A DNA stretch of 64,000 bases from an uncultured Candidatus Saccharibacteria bacterium (lineage in GTDB: Bacteria > Patescibacteriota > Saccharimonadia > Saccharimonadales > Saccharimonadaceae), in contig CANDYU010000002.1 in NCBI GenBank assembly GCA_947425245.1, positions 1 through 64,000 of the forward strand. Direction: 5' to 3'. Under the pieces are notes generated by a model, which was given only the letters and a program-made list of their open reading frames with translations, did no database searches and was not told the origin of the DNA. The translations under genes and the position numbers were made by a program. Below are positions 26,755-35,240 of the stretch, piece after piece; the first letter of the stretch is position 1; the number at the start of each line of letters is the position of its first letter.

Positions 26755-26829
26755 AGGGGTGTAGTACAACGGTTAGTATAGCGGTCTCCAAAACCGTAGA
26801 TCATGGTTCGATTCCGTGCACCCCTGCCA
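26755..26829 (+). tRNA. tRNA-Trp (CCA), apparent integration site
   Basis: 75 bases with acceptor AGGGGTG/CACCCCT, anticodon loop CTCCAAA (CCA), canonical T-loop TTCGATT, discriminator G and encoded CCA. The serine recombinase on the opposite strand terminates inside the tRNA (stop at 26773-26775), the pattern expected when an element has integrated at the 3' part of a tRNA gene. A hairpin at about 26853-26877 may end its transcript. Confidence 0.95.
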
Positions 26830-28419
26830 TACAGAACTTCGTTTTTTGAGGAAGAGCCCTGCAAGGGGCTCTTTCAGGGTATAAGTGAGGTTTTCACCGT
26901 CAAAATAGAGGTTCGATAGTAGCATACTCAGGATTTGGCGTTTCTCGTTCGAGTTCGCAACCTTAAAGATGTCGGCAGCGTGCTCAAAGAGATTGAGCAG
27001 GTATTCTACGGTTACATAGTAGCCTTGATCCATACTATCCAGCCTCTGCTGCTGCCTTTCGATCTCAGCCAACCCCTCAGCATAGCGTGACATATTCTCG
27101 TCATAGAACTCTTGTGTAATACCCACGGCAGCGCCTGTGCCATCACTATCCATATATTTATCAAATAAGTTACGTTGACGGCGTTGAATTTGTTGTTTTG
27201 CCGTTTCCAGCTCAGCACGGCGTATGTCGTAATACTTGTTTTTCTCGGTATGAGCCTTAGAAAGCATTTTGCGAAGCTCTGATAGGCGTTCTTTCGGTGG
27301 CTTTAGATGCCTCAATAAATCCTCGATAATGGCATCCACCTTGCGTTCTTCGATACTATGCACCTTATCCCGATGTTCATCTTTGCTGTTGGTGCAGTGG
27401 TAGTAGACATAGTGATGAACATTGCCGTTCTTCTGCTTTTTGGTTTTAGTATCTGGAGTGACACTACACCCACAGACAGAACAGGTAATTAGACCTTTGT
27501 AGGTTGCTCCACTCCCAAAGTAGCGTTGACGACGATGGCTATGCCCAGCTAGCACCTCTTGGTTGCGATCATACAACTCACGAGTAATCATCGGCTAATA
27601 GATGTGAGGATATTCGATATCAGTCCGAGGATCAACGAGCACGCCATAGTAGAACTTGTTCGTTAGCACGCGATAAATCCCATCCTTCACCAATTTTACG
27701 CCAAACTCATCTTCGATCTCCTTCGATAGCGATTTAACGGAATACATACCCGTCGAGTAGCGACGTAGAATCTCCTTGGCAACCTTACCCTTAGTTGGGT
27801 GTTCAATTACTGTGCGTGTTCCGTTTGGTAATTTTGTATGCATATAGCCGAACGGAGCAGACCAGGGTAATTCACCTTTTTGGAGCTTGGATAACTTCGA
27901 GTTTTGTCCGTCTTCCTTCACTCGTTCGAGATACTGACGGGCAATCAAAACTTTCATATCCCACTGCAAAATATCGTTGCTTTTACTAGATTTGTCCAAA
28001 ATAAAGTTGTCGTCGATGAAGTGAATGCGTTTGTCGTATTTTGACCGTAAGTCGTCTACAACCACGGCATCTTGGAAGTTACGAGTGATGCGATCAACTC
28101 GAAACGCGATCACGTCCGTTACGCCTTTATTCTTCTTGACGTAATCAATCATCTCAGCGAACTTCTTTCGGATCTTATACTGCCCGCCAGTTTCGCTAAC
28201 CGAGAAGATCTTGTCAATCTCCAAGCCATTTCTCTTTGCATACTCCTCAGCACGAGGAATCTGGATCTCAGTGAGCGATAGCCCCTCTTTTTCTTGCCGT
28301 GCCGTAGAAACACGAGCAAAGACCACTGCCTTTCGTGCCGATGGCGCTTTTGATTTTTTGCTTAGTTTCGTATTCGGTTTACTTGCAGATTTTGCATCTG
28401 CCATTACTTTTATTGCCAT
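26773..28419 (-). pseudogene. Large serine recombinase split by an in-frame amber codon
   Basis: Residues 1-274 (28419-27598) hold the resolvase domain (VVFARVSTARQEKEGLSLTEIQIPRAEEYA with catalytic Ser, and AFRVDRITRNF) and the Recombinase domain. TAG at 27597-27595 interrupts YPHIY/PMITRELYDRNQ in the same frame, where the family normally reads through. The second part (27591-26773) has the zinc ribbon (CSVCGCSV...CTNS) and coiled coil. One base change would restore an ORF of about 548 codons. The last residues (CTESNHDLRFWRPLY) are encoded antisense to tRNA-Trp. SD GAGGAAG precedes the start. Likely the island integrase, now inactive unless the amber is suppressed. Confidence 0.8.
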
Positions 28420-28434
28420 ATTTTCTTCCTCTAA

Positions 28435-29604
28435 TTATACCACTTTACCCCTGTAATCATCAAGGTTAAGTAGTTTGAATTGGTTGATTTGTTTTCGCAT
28501 TTCCGCAAAATAGTTTATTTTTGATTGTGGCAAAGTGTAACCTTTAATCCTTTTCTTCAAGTCACACCATTGCCGACTTGTGCAGCCTAATGCTCTTCTT
28601 GTAGCGTTTACTCCAACCTCCTCGGTCGCCATATACTCGCCAAGTAGCATTAGGACATTTGCTGGAGTAATATCAGGGTTCAACCTTCTTACCTCAGCAA
28701 GATACTCATCGGGAGGCTCTCTGCCACCTACTGATGATGGCATCGCGACCTCCAACTCAGCCAAATCGCTTAGCAAGATTGCTTTTGCAACTTTCAGATC
28801 ATATAAGTCCTTCAATTTGGGTCGATCAGGCACACTAATTCCTAAGCTGCGCAATGACTTTACGATCGTTTCTCGCTTGAGTAGCCTCGCTTCGATGCGC
28901 AACACCTCAAACGTATTGGGCGTAGTAAGTAGGAACTCCTTCACATAGTTTTGTTGGCACCAACTATCTCTTTCAAGGTTGCCTTTCTCGGTCTTTCGAG
29001 CCTTTTCAAGTTCCTTCAACTTATCATATACACATAATCCACGTGAGCTAGTGTAGATGTGCAGAGCATCGCCACCGTTGAGATACTTCGTTTCGCAAGT
29101 TTTCTTACGCAAGCTCACCTCGGCTTTCTTCAAGTATGAGATTACGCTAGTTGGTTTAGTTCCATCCATAAAGATGATGTTTTTAGCATAATGGACGGTT
29201 TTCACTTCGGCATAACGCAACTGATTCGGTGATAAATGCACGCCTTTTTTCGCCAACGATTTGCTCAAAACATCGCAGAGGTTACTGTAATCCGACACGC
29301 CAATCTCAGTAAAGTTGTTGCCATAAATCAGTTTCGGAGCAGAGAACTCAATATAAAGTAAACGGCGATACCCACCACTTACACGCTGCACATATAAAGT
29401 GAGACGTGGCGTGTAGATACCGAGCTTCTTATCTATCTTGGTCGTATTAAGTCGATATGATGCGCTATTGCCGTTGATTTTGGCAAACGGTGGCACGAAA
29501 GCACCCCTGAGTGACGGCGACCAATCATCAAAACTTGATTTAGCGATAACCTTTTGGAGTTTCGGATCTCCGATTCTGATTACTAAGACCATTGTATCCA
29601 GCAC
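28435..29604 (-). CDS. Rolling-circle replication initiator (phage gene II/RstA-like Rep)
   Basis: This 389-residue protein resembles replication initiators of filamentous phages and small plasmids (gene II/X, RstA). LRYAEVKTVHYAKNIIF and LHIYTSSRGLCVYDKLKELEKA include the YDK motif, preceded by an HUH-like neighbourhood. A C-terminal helical region follows. These enzymes nick DNA at an origin and stay covalently bound through tyrosine. GTG start follows AAGGAAG and overlaps the SpoVG-like gene by 65 bases. It lies between the recombinase and small regulators, consistent with an integrated plasmid- or inovirus-like element. The catalytic tyrosine was not placed with certainty. Confidence 0.65.
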   Translation of the reverse strand: MLDTMVLVIRIGDPKLQKVIAKSSFDDWSPSLRGAFVPPFAKINGNSASYRLNTTKIDKKLGIYTPRLTLYVQRVSGGYRRLLYIEFSAPKLIYGNNFTEIGVSDYSNLCDVLSKSLAKKGVHLSPNQLRYAEVKTVHYAKNIIFMDGTKPTSVISYLKKAEVSLRKKTCETKYLNGGDALHIYTSSRGLCVYDKLKELEKARKTEKGNLERDSWCQQNYVKEFLLTTPNTFEVLRIEARLLKRETIVKSLRSLGISVPDRPKLKDLYDLKVAKAILLSDLAELEVAMPSSVGGREPPDEYLAEVRRLNPDITPANVLMLLGEYMATEEVGVNATRRALGCTSRQWCDLKKRIKGYTLPQSKINYFAEMRKQINQFKLLNLDDYRGKVV

Positions 29605-31348: not shown

Positions 31349-31810
31349 TTACTTCTTGCGATCCCTAATTACGTCCGCTGGTGGATATTTTTTATACCAC
31401 GGTATATTGGGATCATCTGCTGGCTTTTCTAGGGTATTATCGGGTTTTAGATGCTCAATAACTTTCATTATTATTCCCGCAACACTCATCACGGCTACAA
31501 AACCAATTCCACCCCAAAACGCAACCCGCCAAATCCACGGGAACCACCAGCTTCCGCTGCATCCACTCACCCACAGTAGCAGTAAAATCACTCCAACCCA
31601 GCACCAGCCAAACAATGTCAACCCGATTGAGCCGCCAATCATTGCCATCAGCGTTGACGGCTCCTTGTCATATGAATTACCATCTATTGCGTGCTTGATG
31701 CGGTTGCGTTCAGCTTGTGCGCCTTCTTCGTAGCCTCGGTCATATGCCGTGCCACTACCAAACCAATACCCGTCCTGCCAACCATCGTTGTAATTATTAT
31801 CTTTTGACAT
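31349..31810 (-). CDS. Small membrane protein with leader shared with the methyltransferase
   Basis: This 153-residue protein has a polar Gly/Tyr-rich N-terminus (NYNDGWQDGYWFGSGTAYDRGYEEG) and two hydrophobic segments at about 55-82 and 90-115, followed by a charged tail. I know no family. The sequence over its start (TTGCGAAACTATG) is the same as that over the start of the divergent methyltransferase at 32063-32074, so both may obey the same regulator. Confidence 0.55.
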   Translation of the reverse strand: MSKDNNYNDGWQDGYWFGSGTAYDRGYEEGAQAERNRIKHAIDGNSYDKEPSTLMAMIGGSIGLTLFGWCWVGVILLLLWVSGCSGSWWFPWIWRVAFWGGIGFVAVMSVAGIIMKVIEHLKPDNTLEKPADDPNIPWYKKYPPADVIRDRKK

Positions 31811-31896
31811 AGTTTCGCAACTTTCTCTTAGCTAATTATATCATAAACCCCCATTATTGTGAATTGACAAGGCTTTATTCGTGGGCTATTTCGTGA

Positions 31897-32073
31897 TATA
31901 ATTAGAATGCGAAACTATAATTCAATAATTCTCCATTGAAGGAGCAGGTCAAGCGACCACTTACCGTTCTCCTTCGTGGATGAATTATAGTTTCGCAACT
32001 AGAGTAAGTGGTCGCTAATTTGTGTTTTTAGTCTCGAATTAGCAACCAGAATAACGAAAGGTTGCGAAACTAT
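31897..32073 (+). promoter_or_regulatory. Methyltransferase leader with interleaved inverted repeats
   Basis: An extended -10 (TGATATAAT, TATAAT at 31897-31902) would start RNA near 31908. Arm A TGCGAAACTATAATTCA (31908-31924) pairs perfectly with A' 31981-31997. Arm B AGCGACCACTTAC (31952-31964), in the loop, pairs perfectly with B' 32004-32016, which is followed by GTGTTTTTA like a terminator. Part of A (TGCGAAACTAT) recurs at 32063-32073 over the ATG and, on the minus strand, at 31819-31809 over the start of the divergent gene. A' could therefore bind either mRNA start. Repeats are seen; the switch is inferred. Confidence 0.6.
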
Positions 32074-33098
32074 GGCTAACACATCATTAGACAAGGCTAA
32101 GAAAGCCAAGGATAACGAGTTTTACACTCGTTATGACGACATTCAAGCAGAATTGAACCATTACCGAGAGCAGTTTCGGGGAAAGGTCGTATATTGCAAC
32201 TGCGACGATCCAGCCGAAAGTGCATTCTCGGATTTTTTTTAAGTTAAACTTTGACCATTATGGGTTGAAGAAGCTCATCTGCACTCGCTACATAAAATCT
32301 GACCTCTTTACGAAAGCGTGGCTAGACCCGATGCACCGAGTGGGCTATCGCATCGAGATTACGGGCAAGGATAGATGTGAGAAGATAGACCTTCAGGAAG
32401 GCGGTGATTTTCGGAGTGAGGAGTGCATCGAGCTGCTAAAGGAGGCGGATATAGTCTGCACTAACCCGCCTTTCTCGCTTTTTCGTGAGTATATCCAGCA
32501 GCTAATGCAATACCATAAGAAGTTTTTAGTCATTGGCAACAAGAACGCTATCACCTATAAGGAGGTGTTTCCGCTTTTGGCAAACAACGAGGTGTGGCTG
32601 GGCTACACTGTGCCAAATAAGTTTATCAGACCAGACGGCACCGAAACTACCAATATGTCCGGGCTCTGTCGCTGGTGGACTAATCTTGACACTACCAAAC
32701 GCCACGAAGATATGATCTTGTATGAAAACTATGCCCCCGAGAAGTTCCCGCGCTATGACAACTATGATGCTATCGAGGTCAACAAGGTAAAGTCCATTCC
32801 GAAGGATTATTTTGGGGTAATGGGCGTGCCAATTACGTTTTTTGATAGCTACAACCCTAAGCAATTTGAGATTATAGGAATTACTAAAACGTGGTTTGGT
32901 AGCACGACAAGAAAATATCCACCACAAATACAGGTTAGTCCTAGGGGCAAGAAGGAGGAATTAGTGTCGAAGCTTAATGATGGAGCGGCGCTAGAACGTC
33001 AATTTGACCCTACGAAAGCTACATATTACATCGTGGACGGCAAAGAATATGTGCAAGAGTATGCGCGGATACTTATAAAGCGAAAGGAGAACAAGTGA
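32072..33098 (+). pseudogene. EcoRI-family adenine DNA methyltransferase, off-frame at a T8 tract
   Basis: The N-terminal piece reads EFYTRYDDIQAELNHYREQFRGKVVYCNCDDPAESAFSDFF, then TAA at 32240-32242. The reading frame that continues as KLNFDHYGLKKLICTRY is reached only if the T8 run (32233-32240) loses one T. The second part carries the catalytic NPPF (TNPPFSLFREYI), followed by KNAITYKEVFPLL. This is the MT_EcoRI family, which methylates adenine in DNA. A homopolymer at the break suggests phase variation or transcriptional slippage, not simple decay. The stop overlaps the GTG of the DUF262-HNH gene. Confidence 0.8.
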
Positions 33099-34222
33099 AA
33101 ACGACTAGGCAAAATATCACCATCAGGCAACTGTTTGAAGGCTATCAAGATCGCGACTGGGACGGTGTAGTTGGCTTTGACGGTAAACTCGATATACGAC
33201 CAAAATACCAGCGTGAGTTCATCTATGACGACGAACGTCAACGCAAGGTTGTTGACACGATAATGCACGAACGACCGCTCAACATTATGTATTGGGTCAT
33301 CAACGGTGATCACTTCGACCTACTTGACGGGCAACAACGCACCCTTTCAATTTGTCGCTATCTCGACCATAAGTTCGCCATCATTAACCAGAATGGCGAG
33401 AAAATGTATTTTGACACTCTGCCAGAAGATGAAGGCGAACGCATCTTAGACTACCCGCTCGAAGTATGTATCTGTGATGGCACGGAGAACGAGATCTACG
33501 ACTGGTTCCGCACCATCAACATTAACGGTATAGCCCTCAATGAGCAAGAAATGCTTAACGCCACCTACACAGGGGAGTGGTTGACTGATGCGCGCCGATA
33601 TTTTAGTAAACCAAATTGTGCTGCTTATGGCTTAGGCAAGGACTATATGAAGGGGTCAGTTGAACGGCAGGATTATCTAGCCAGAGTGATAAAATGGACT
33701 AGTAAGGGAGATGTAAAGGGATATATGGCGGAGCATCGGCGGGACGCCGATGCTGGCGAACTTTGGCATTATTTTGAAAACGTTATTGCTTGGATTAGGT
33801 CAGTGTTTCCCGTTTATCGCTCCGAAATGAAGGGGCTGGATTGGGGTGGGTTTTATAATGATTTCAAAGATCAGACTTTTGATGCTGGCAGTTTGGAGGA
33901 ACAAGTAAAAGTTCTGATGGCAGACGATGAAGTTCAATCAAAATCAGGCATCTATGAGTATGTGCTATATGGTCAGGAAAAGTCTCTCAATCTGTGCACT
34001 TTCGATAACGCCACCAGACGCACGGTATATGAGCGGCAAGGCGGACACTGCCCATACTGCAACCAAGAGCAAGACGGGCAGCACAAAGGTGAAAAATATG
34101 AGATTGCAGAGATGGAAGCTGATCACATCATACCTTGGAGCAAGGGAGGCAAAACTGTCATAGAGAACTGCCAGATGCTTTGCAAGAGACATAATTTAAT
34201 GAAAACTAATCACCTGCTCTAA
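33095..34222 (+). CDS. DUF262-HNH endonuclease, probable partner of the methyltransferase
   Basis: This 375-residue protein has an N-terminal DUF262 domain (IRPKYQREFIYDDERQRKVVDTIM and FDLLDGQQRTLSICRYL with the DGQQR motif). A C-terminal HNH nuclease follows: HCPYCNQEQDG, then EADHIIPWSKGGKTVIENCQMLCKRHN, with two CxxC-type zinc ligand pairs and the HNH histidines at about 345-370. GTG start overlaps the methyltransferase stop, which points to coupled expression. A restriction role is inferred from this pairing; nucleotide-gated cleavage is known for GmrSD relatives. Confidence 0.82.
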   Translation: MKTTRQNITIRQLFEGYQDRDWDGVVGFDGKLDIRPKYQREFIYDDERQRKVVDTIMHERPLNIMYWVINGDHFDLLDGQQRTLSICRYLDHKFAIINQNGEKMYFDTLPEDEGERILDYPLEVCICDGTENEIYDWFRTININGIALNEQEMLNATYTGEWLTDARRYFSKPNCAAYGLGKDYMKGSVERQDYLARVIKWTSKGDVKGYMAEHRRDADAGELWHYFENVIAWIRSVFPVYRSEMKGLDWGGFYNDFKDQTFDAGSLEEQVKVLMADDEVQSKSGIYEYVLYGQEKSLNLCTFDNATRRTVYERQGGHCPYCNQEQDGQHKGEKYEIAEMEADHIIPWSKGGKTVIENCQMLCKRHNLMKTNHLL

Positions 34223-34224
34223 AA

Positions 34225-34752
34225 CTAGATAACTGTGCCTAAGAACAGCCCATCGTTACAGTGCAGATATTTGTGCCGCCAAGTCCTAACCGACATTGAT
34301 TGCAAAATACCATCACGAGTAAAGCACTCTACTCGCTTCGTATTGCCGTTGTAGTAATAGTCGGATGGTCGGGTTTCTGGATAAGTAAATCTTACCGGTA
34401 GTTCTAAATATGTCTTAGGTTGCTCCTGATGCTCGCCCGTCGTTACATTATGCGCTTGTGGCACATTTAGAGCCTTTGCGAGTGGTCTTTCCGGCTGGGC
34501 AAGATATTTATGGGGAATTTTACGTTTATAGCCTCTATAATGATATTTAGCGAGTGCTTCAGCGTTGCTCCAGCTACCTTCCGTCGCTTCGTTGATTAGT
34601 TTATCAAACTCCAGATCCTTAGCACGGAGACGGTTGAAGGTTGATGGAGAAATACCAACACCATAGCAGGCATCTTTAATAGTTAAGCCAGAGCGAATAA
34701 AATCCGCCAGCTTTAGCTTCTTCTCATCAGTAATCTTTGTTGGTCGTGCCAT
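34225..34752 (-). CDS. Helix-turn-helix protein, possibly terminase small subunit-like
   Basis: 175 residues from ATG at 34752. The start MARPTKITDEKKLKLADFIRSGLTIKDACYGVGISPSTFNRL contains a homeodomain-like HTH similar to phage terminase small subunits and transposase-type HTHs. The C-terminal half is basic with aromatic patches (RPSDYYYNGNTK). No terminase large subunit is near, so a regulatory role is as likely. It is convergent with the DUF262-HNH gene, 2 bases apart. Confidence 0.55.
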   Translation of the reverse strand: MARPTKITDEKKLKLADFIRSGLTIKDACYGVGISPSTFNRLRAKDLEFDKLINEATEGSWSNAEALAKYHYRGYKRKIPHKYLAQPERPLAKALNVPQAHNVTTGEHQEQPKTYLELPVRFTYPETRPSDYYYNGNTKRVECFTRDGILQSMSVRTWRHKYLHCNDGLFLGTVI

Positions 34753-35240
34753 AATCTCATTATATCGTGGTAGTGAAAATATTTTTTGCAGAAAAAGAAA
34801 ACCAGCACAGAAACCGCCATTGTGACGCAAAACACGCAAAACATCAAAACCCTGTCACTCTTTTTAGGATATTGAAAAGCGGTGCAAAATACCAGGAGGT
34901 TTCGAAGTTACACCATTCTTAGTCCAGAAAGTGCACCGTGTTCGGCTAGTTTGCTATTTGGACAGGTCGATTAGTTTTGGTATCATAAGCCTAAAACTAA
35001 TCATTATCCCTACTATTAGACTGGAATATTAGCTAAGAACAATACGGCAACGTTTGTGTTTAGGGCAGATTACAGATCGTGTTAGTGTGAGAACGCAATG
35101 TATCCTTTACGACATTCGATCGAAAAATGTCGAAAATACTCAAAGTATGCTAAAATAAAAGCATAGACGTAAAAACATAAAAATAAAAAACTAAAATAAG
35201 AAATAAAAGTATTGCTGTATTTATCATATTGTGATATAAT
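34753..35240. other. Intergenic stretch without a recognisable gene
   Basis: About 490 bases of A/T-rich sequence. No ORF with a plausible start was found. An extended -10 (TGTGATATAAT, near 35230) close to the right end probably serves the following gene pair. A TGCTAAAAT box occurs near 35150. Confidence 0.4.

Follow-up and report, generated by a model that had tools for sequence, protein, structure and literature searches.

Why should a motif that covers the start codon of an EcoRI-type DNA methyltransferase gene recur, in both orientations, in the leader that precedes this gene? The locus lies in a window of 64,000 nt, the whole stretch of DNA analysed here, from an uncultured Candidatus Saccharibacteria bacterium (GCA_947425245.1, contig CANDYU010000002.1, positions 1-64,000, forward strand). 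The initial annotation described two interleaved inverted pairs at this site, and both are borne out: A 31908-31924 matches A' 31981-31997 over 17 nt, and B 31952-31964 matches B' 32004-32016 over 13 nt, at 100% in each case. The four exact copies of the 11-mer TGCGAAACTAT were also found as claimed, at 31809-31819 (minus), 31908-31918 (plus), 31987-31997 (minus) and 32063-32073 (plus). No further exact copy is present within the 64 kb window, and the only extra one in the 882 kb genome was set aside since it lies within a coding region. The leader region folds far better than shuffled sequence, with z-scores of -6.4 and -6.3 and none of 200 shuffles as good. The pairing of A' with the methyltransferase start turned out to be longer than had been claimed, 16 bp between 31985-32000 and 32060-32075. 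Two elements had been overlooked, a local hairpin P3 (31995-32015) and a B-like strand B2 (32037-32048), which also pairs with B'. On balance, we take the segment 31894-32075 to be, probably, a cis-acting leader that combines transcription attenuation with a start-codon lock. Its features are as follows.

31809-31822, minus strand: 14-nt arm-A sequence spanning the start of the divergent membrane-protein gene (gene 31349-31810), from the repeat search
31894-31902, plus strand: extended -10 promoter element TGATATAAT, hexamer at 31897-31902; the same hexamer stands 6-8 nt before P1 across the family
31909-31924, plus strand: 5' arm of P1 (A above), predicted +1 at about 31909; repeat search and compensatory changes
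31981-31996, plus strand: 3' arm of P1 (A' above); repeat search and compensatory changes
31937-31944, plus strand: 5' arm of the inner stem P2; per-copy parse and covariation
31969-31976, plus strand: 3' arm of P2; per-copy parse and covariation
31952-31964, plus strand: loop strand B of P2, able to pair with B'; repeat search, per-copy parse and B:B' covariation
31995-32015, plus strand: terminator hairpin P3, GCAACTA...TGGTCGC, with an A31997/C32013 mismatch in the window; the family P3 is GCGACTA...TAGTCGC
32004-32016, plus strand: strand B', common to the P3, B and B2 pairings; repeat search and covariation
32017-32030, plus strand: T-rich terminator tail, from the sequence
32037-32048, plus strand: B2, complementary to 32009-32020 (92%), just 5' of the Shine-Dalgarno sequence; repeat search
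32056-32061, plus strand: Shine-Dalgarno sequence GAAAGG, from the sequence
32060-32075, plus strand: repeat of arm A at the start codon, GGTTGCGAAACTATGG, pairing over 16 bp with 31985-32000; repeat search and start-pairing test
32072-33098, plus strand: EcoRI-type adenine methyltransferase gene (PF13651, E 8.1e-85), frame broken by T8 at 32233-32240
33095-34222, plus strand: GmrSD_N (DUF262)-HNH nuclease, possible cognate restriction enzyme; gene order shared with the relative L098

In the parsed copies the -10 hexamer is followed by 6 or 7 nt (8 at most) and then by GC, the first pair of P1. Because of this spacing P1 is placed at the predicted +1, in agreement with the transcript start near 31908 that the initial annotation expected. 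P1 has mostly 10-26 bp and is followed by a bulge on the 5' side, by P2 and by a loop of some 20-30 nt, within which B lies. P3 comes directly after A' and in most copies reads GCGACUA-AGUAAA-UAGUCGC-AUUUUU, an intrinsic terminator by sequence. B (AAUGCGGCUAUUUAC) pairs over mostly 12-17 bp with B', which consists of the P3 loop, the 3' half of P3 and the first U residues. B:B' had been taken for the terminator-like hairpin of the leader; the pairing is real and a T-rich tail does follow it, but the usual terminator of the family is P3, not B:B' alone. B2 lies between the U tract and the Shine-Dalgarno sequence, with its 3' end mostly 12-19 nt ahead of the start codon, and is a significant complement to B' in 50 of 85 tested copies at p<=0.05 (about 4 expected), the window copy itself being absent from the printed results. 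After read-through, B' can also pair, by its predicted complementarity, downstream with B2. Most of the conserved leader bases are accounted for by the P3, B:B' and B2 pairings, and the sequences of P1 and P2 vary freely. A leader peptide (ATG CGA AAC TAT at the 5' end) was considered and rejected: the ATG at 31907 is GTG, TTG, TAG, CAG or CGC in homologues and lies before the predicted +1, and no conserved short leader ORF was found among the homologues compared.

The T8 run breaks the methyltransferase frame after 56 codons in the assembly; the gene of L098 is intact. The break may be an error of the assembly, a case of phase variation or the mark of a genuine pseudogene. Since the order of the methyltransferase and the GmrSD_N-HNH nuclease is kept in L098, the leader probably controls a restriction-modification (R-M) operon. 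Just 3' of the nuclease, a minus-strand gene at 34225-34839 encodes a protein that matches phage small-terminase families. The leader also adjoins a filamentous-phage-type (Phage_CRI-type) replication protein gene and a serine recombinase split into two frames (26773-29604); to judge from these genes, this is an integrated mobile element beside the R-M genes.

A DNA search of the window's taxonomic family returned the same element in three genomes of the same genus, ahead of an EcoRI-type methyltransferase (L007), a type III Mod-like methyltransferase (L008) and an unrelated gene (L011). Short matches L009, L010 and L012-L014 were set aside as looking like chance or promoter-only similarity (L012 and L014 uninspected). 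Together with the window copy, these three gave a covariance model that detected the element in 47 of the 174 genomes in the genus. A second model, built from 56 copies, extended this to 81 of 394 genomes in the family, spread over 15 of its 61 genera, and more than 100 copies are now recognized in Saccharibacteria. Outside the family no copy appeared in class and phylum samples under strict filters, which must have missed some copies. The terminator core, sought as an exact match in 84,980 species, turned up in 18 stretches, every one from Candidatus Saccharibacteria (Ca. Nanosyncoccus alces among them), and the core pattern did not occur in viral contigs. All that Rfam 15 offered for the window leader was a miRNA match of 13.4 bits, far below the cut-off of 110, four typical copies had no Rfam match inside the leader, and no paper on structured RNAs of Saccharibacteria was found in the literature searched. 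The leader RNA family is apparently undescribed.

In the alignment of P1, P2 and P3, 98% of cells are paired and 21 of 28 pairs have changed on both sides; the covariation score is 0.695, vs. 0.186 in shuffled and below 0.09 in slid alignments. This alignment was fitted to the structure, and a per-copy parse without alignment agrees with it. B:B' is paired in 96.3% of cells, with 39 double-changed cells vs. 8.7 in shuffles (0/500). It is still paired where P3 is broken or missing (the window, L058, L062, L093 and L105), which means that B:B' is under no weaker constraint than P3. One diverged subfamily (L141-L147) shows joint changes in the 5' strand of P3, B, B' and B2 (GCACC, GGCACCGUAAGG, CCUUGCGGUGCC and GGCACCGCAA, respectively). 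As the initial annotation would have it, homologous leaders should preserve the pairing and the start-codon repeat: the pairing is kept, with compensatory changes, in more than 50 homologues, and the repeat co-varies with arm A' in methyltransferase leaders. In general, the predicted structure of the leader (P1, P2, P3, B:B' and their conservation) is well supported, and these conserved pairings support the proposal of a leader that switches in cis between rival pairings and is linked to the control of methyltransferases.

Downstream of 96 leaders, 89 proteins were collected; they are diverse and include hypothetical proteins, GIY-YIG proteins (6), type IV secretion pilins (3) and Fib_succ_major proteins (3). 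The DNA methyltransferases among them are four of the EcoRI type, four N6_N4, one MmeI-type and two weak N6_Mtase-like. The view of the leader as a methyltransferase regulator holds in part: the start-codon copy is specific to methyltransferases, but most leader copies precede other genes. Several of these proteins form recognizable groups. A large set of hypothetical proteins linked to L074, L076, L083, L085, L100 and other leaders share N-terminal motifs such as FEEHM...PEGVRDxxDYxEY, with no Pfam family apparent. Those behind L070, L102, L103, L130, L131 and L132 resemble one another (MSTIKFTSLLHLS...VKESVKTHNP...), recur in several genomes and are probably the six GIY-YIG matches of the pooled Pfam scan. 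The diverged subfamily L141-L147 (GGCACC core) precedes long secreted or surface-type proteins, with several copies per genome. L061 and L092, on two contigs of one genome, have different leader stems and identical downstream sequence and gene start, which suggests recent duplication or recombination around the leader.

Pairing of the start region was assessed by matching a strand that joins the 3'-terminal 12 nt of A' to 6 nt of P3 against positions -18 to +5 in leaders with a usable start, counting perfect pairing of at least 8 bp with a score of at least 18. By this measure a leader strand pairs with the Shine-Dalgarno or start region in 9 of 11 methyltransferase leaders and in none of 79 others (Fisher 7.8e-11); the methyltransferase leaders are partly interrelated and their counts not fully independent. 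The nine precede EcoRI-type, type III Mod, MmeI-type, two other N6_N4-type and N6_Mtase-like genes in several genera, and represent fewer than nine independent events, L099/L093, window/L098 and L148/L149 being related pairs. The start copy is absent at the other two, L128 and L129. The P1 arm, A' and the start copy vary from locus to locus yet remain complementary (GCGAAAC in the window, GCUAAAC in L098 and L099, GCAAAAC in L110). The locked start of L110 is that of a 20-codon ORF, and the stop codon of this ORF runs into the ATG of the MmeI-type gene, an arrangement that would be compatible with translational coupling.

A second set consisted of loci fetched by methyltransferase family only and scanned with a model-free detector, which gave zero hits in 192 kb of shuffled sequence and misses the window copy (P3 mismatch) as well as L105 and L093 (both without P3). 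Many of these loci have the same leader architecture in unrelated sequence, with P1 starting GUCC or GUCU, P3 of the type GACACC/GGUGUC and B:B' of 12-18 bp. A' pairs with the start region beyond shuffles in 7 of 13 new leaders, at p<=0.01 each (L150, L170, L172, the G-U-rich L175, L210, L215 and L221). The remaining six reveal no significant A' start pairing, and some of them hide the Shine-Dalgarno sequence in a local hairpin instead. The EcoRI-type methyltransferases at L155, L156, L157, L168 and L177 have no ATG at the conserved N-terminus; frame and spacing suggest AUA start codons (ACG in L177) beside a hairpin that encloses the Shine-Dalgarno sequence, UGGCGC...AGGAGGCGCCA.

Fold energies were computed for 87 leaders, comparing the best structure that contains P1 with the best one in which the 5' arm is unpaired; such energies ignore pseudoknots, proteins and ribosomes. 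Seven of the nine leaders with a start copy have P1 and start-pairing energies within about 4 kcal/mol of each other, the difference (P1 minus no A) being 0.0 in the window, -1.8 in L098, +1.2 in L099, -3.7 in L110, -4.3 in L116, +1.0 in L148 and +0.2 kcal/mol in L149. L093 (-7.8) and L122 (-9.6) favour P1 despite the start copy. The median difference is -3.7 kcal/mol in start-copy leaders vs. -13.0 in the others (p 6e-5), and the start region is unpaired at 0.27 vs. 0.59, respectively (p 1.5e-4). As long as the start region has yet to be transcribed, P1 gives the window leader its best fold; at full length P1 and start pairing tie at -59.5 kcal/mol. Nascent RNA would thus favour P1 with an open start, and the finished mRNA would be near balance.

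Comparison of the copies shows that RNA beginning with the 5' arm of P1 folds as P1-P2, with the terminator P3 immediately behind. In the mechanism that we infer, most transcripts would stop there. Capture of B' by B would prevent P3 from forming and let RNA polymerase read through. At methyltransferase genes the A'-P3 strand would act as an antisense of the start region and provide a second lock: read-through mRNA would be translated only while A keeps A' in P1, the presumed open state, and if A is lost, occupied or outcompeted, A' would cover the start codon. The 5' half of the leader would then be a decoy of the start region, giving two states of nearly equal energy and tight, low methyltransferase expression. 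In favour of the attenuation part, a promoter, a leader with an intrinsic terminator and a coding sequence follow one another, as read from sequence only, and the terminator and its alternative helix are mutually exclusive and both conserved, since P3 and B:B' share B'. Against it, the partner of B is the 3' strand of the terminator, an odd arrangement for an antiterminator, and B:B' with its T residues could itself terminate.

The terminated leader might instead be a stand-alone sRNA acting in trans, which would use its A'-P3 or B/B' strands to bind start regions or the B' of other copies in the family. We consider this unlikely. The core B/B' sequence is nearly identical in many copies, and the short RNA, as predicted, begins at P1 and ends in a terminator; yet B2 and the start copies sit beside the leader in one and the same mRNA, and changes in P1, A' and the start copy go together locus by locus, as action in cis predicts. 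The divergent gene 31349-31810, which the initial annotation had proposed as a possible trans target, would be one such partner. The 14-nt identity at its start is real and by its length exceeds the chance expectation. However, A' is fully paired within P1 in the computed fold of the short RNA, and no equivalent copy was seen upstream in L007, the one relative inspected; the proposal is not supported. A wider form of the idea, in which short terminated copies would exchange B/B' strands in trans across Saccharibacteria and make one regulon of a single RNA architecture, seems to us quite improbable; if true, RNA-RNA exchange and not protein regulators would couple R-M systems, GIY-YIG proteins, secretion pilins and surface proteins.

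One leader common to many unlinked genes, with a strongly conserved B loop and terminator core and the order promoter-leader-terminator-gene, also recalls a riboswitch-type attenuator that senses a ligand or protein through P1-P2 and the B loop and uses the start copy only as a second expression platform. Such a reading is doubtful, as pairing already explains most conserved bases, P1 and P2 are free in sequence, and the downstream genes point to no single metabolite. Inverted and direct copies of one motif close to the Phage_CRI-type Rep and resolvase genes could likewise mark a DNA-level signal, that is, an operator, a recombination site or the replication origin of the mobile element. We reject this as scarcely credible: the stem sequences vary freely while their pairing persists, the distance from the -10 element, the terminator and the gene order are fixed, and copies stand beside chromosomal genes. 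Terminators and hairpins are common, and an ordinary promoter with a constitutive terminator and fortuitous hairpins of no regulatory role would be a further reading. It is very improbable given the covariation of the stems and of B:B', the enrichment of start copies at methyltransferases and the silence of the model-free detector on shuffled sequence.

The cis-acting leader with attenuation and start lock, which we prefer, has parallels among known systems. Saccharibacteria and other Patescibacteria are tiny epibionts with reduced genomes, whose gene regulation is little known; a multi-copy leader RNA with strong covariation and no Rfam match offers a concrete regulatory system to test there. 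It shares with attenuator and riboswitch leaders the 5' position, a promoter directly upstream, an intrinsic terminator before the gene and competing helices; it departs from them in that B targets the 3' half of the terminator, in the extra start-codon copy at methyltransferase genes and in the lack of an Rfam match. In the metastable hok-type mRNAs of type I toxin-antitoxin systems, the 5' end controls access to the start region by alternative long-range pairing, as it would here, but the Saccharibacteria leader has no toxin or antisense promoter, would control an enzyme and includes a terminator. C-protein systems also regulate the expression of a modification/restriction operon; the present control would be RNA based, and no C-protein gene was found in the scanned neighbourhood of the window leader. 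The R-M control known so far works through C proteins, antisense promoters or methylation-sensitive promoters.

The passages searched in reviews on such control treat C proteins, methylation, antisense RNAs and hairpins located at the start of the nuclease; a leader of the start-mimicking type is not described in those passages. In the EcoRI and Eco29kI restriction systems, a separate antisense RNA from a reverse promoter exerts the RNA control (PMC3874152, PMC12707154). RNA pairing tunes an R-M system there, as it probably does here; in contrast, the Saccharibacteria leader would mimic the start region from within the same transcript, a mechanism for the tight control of modification enzymes that recurs across several unrelated methyltransferase families.
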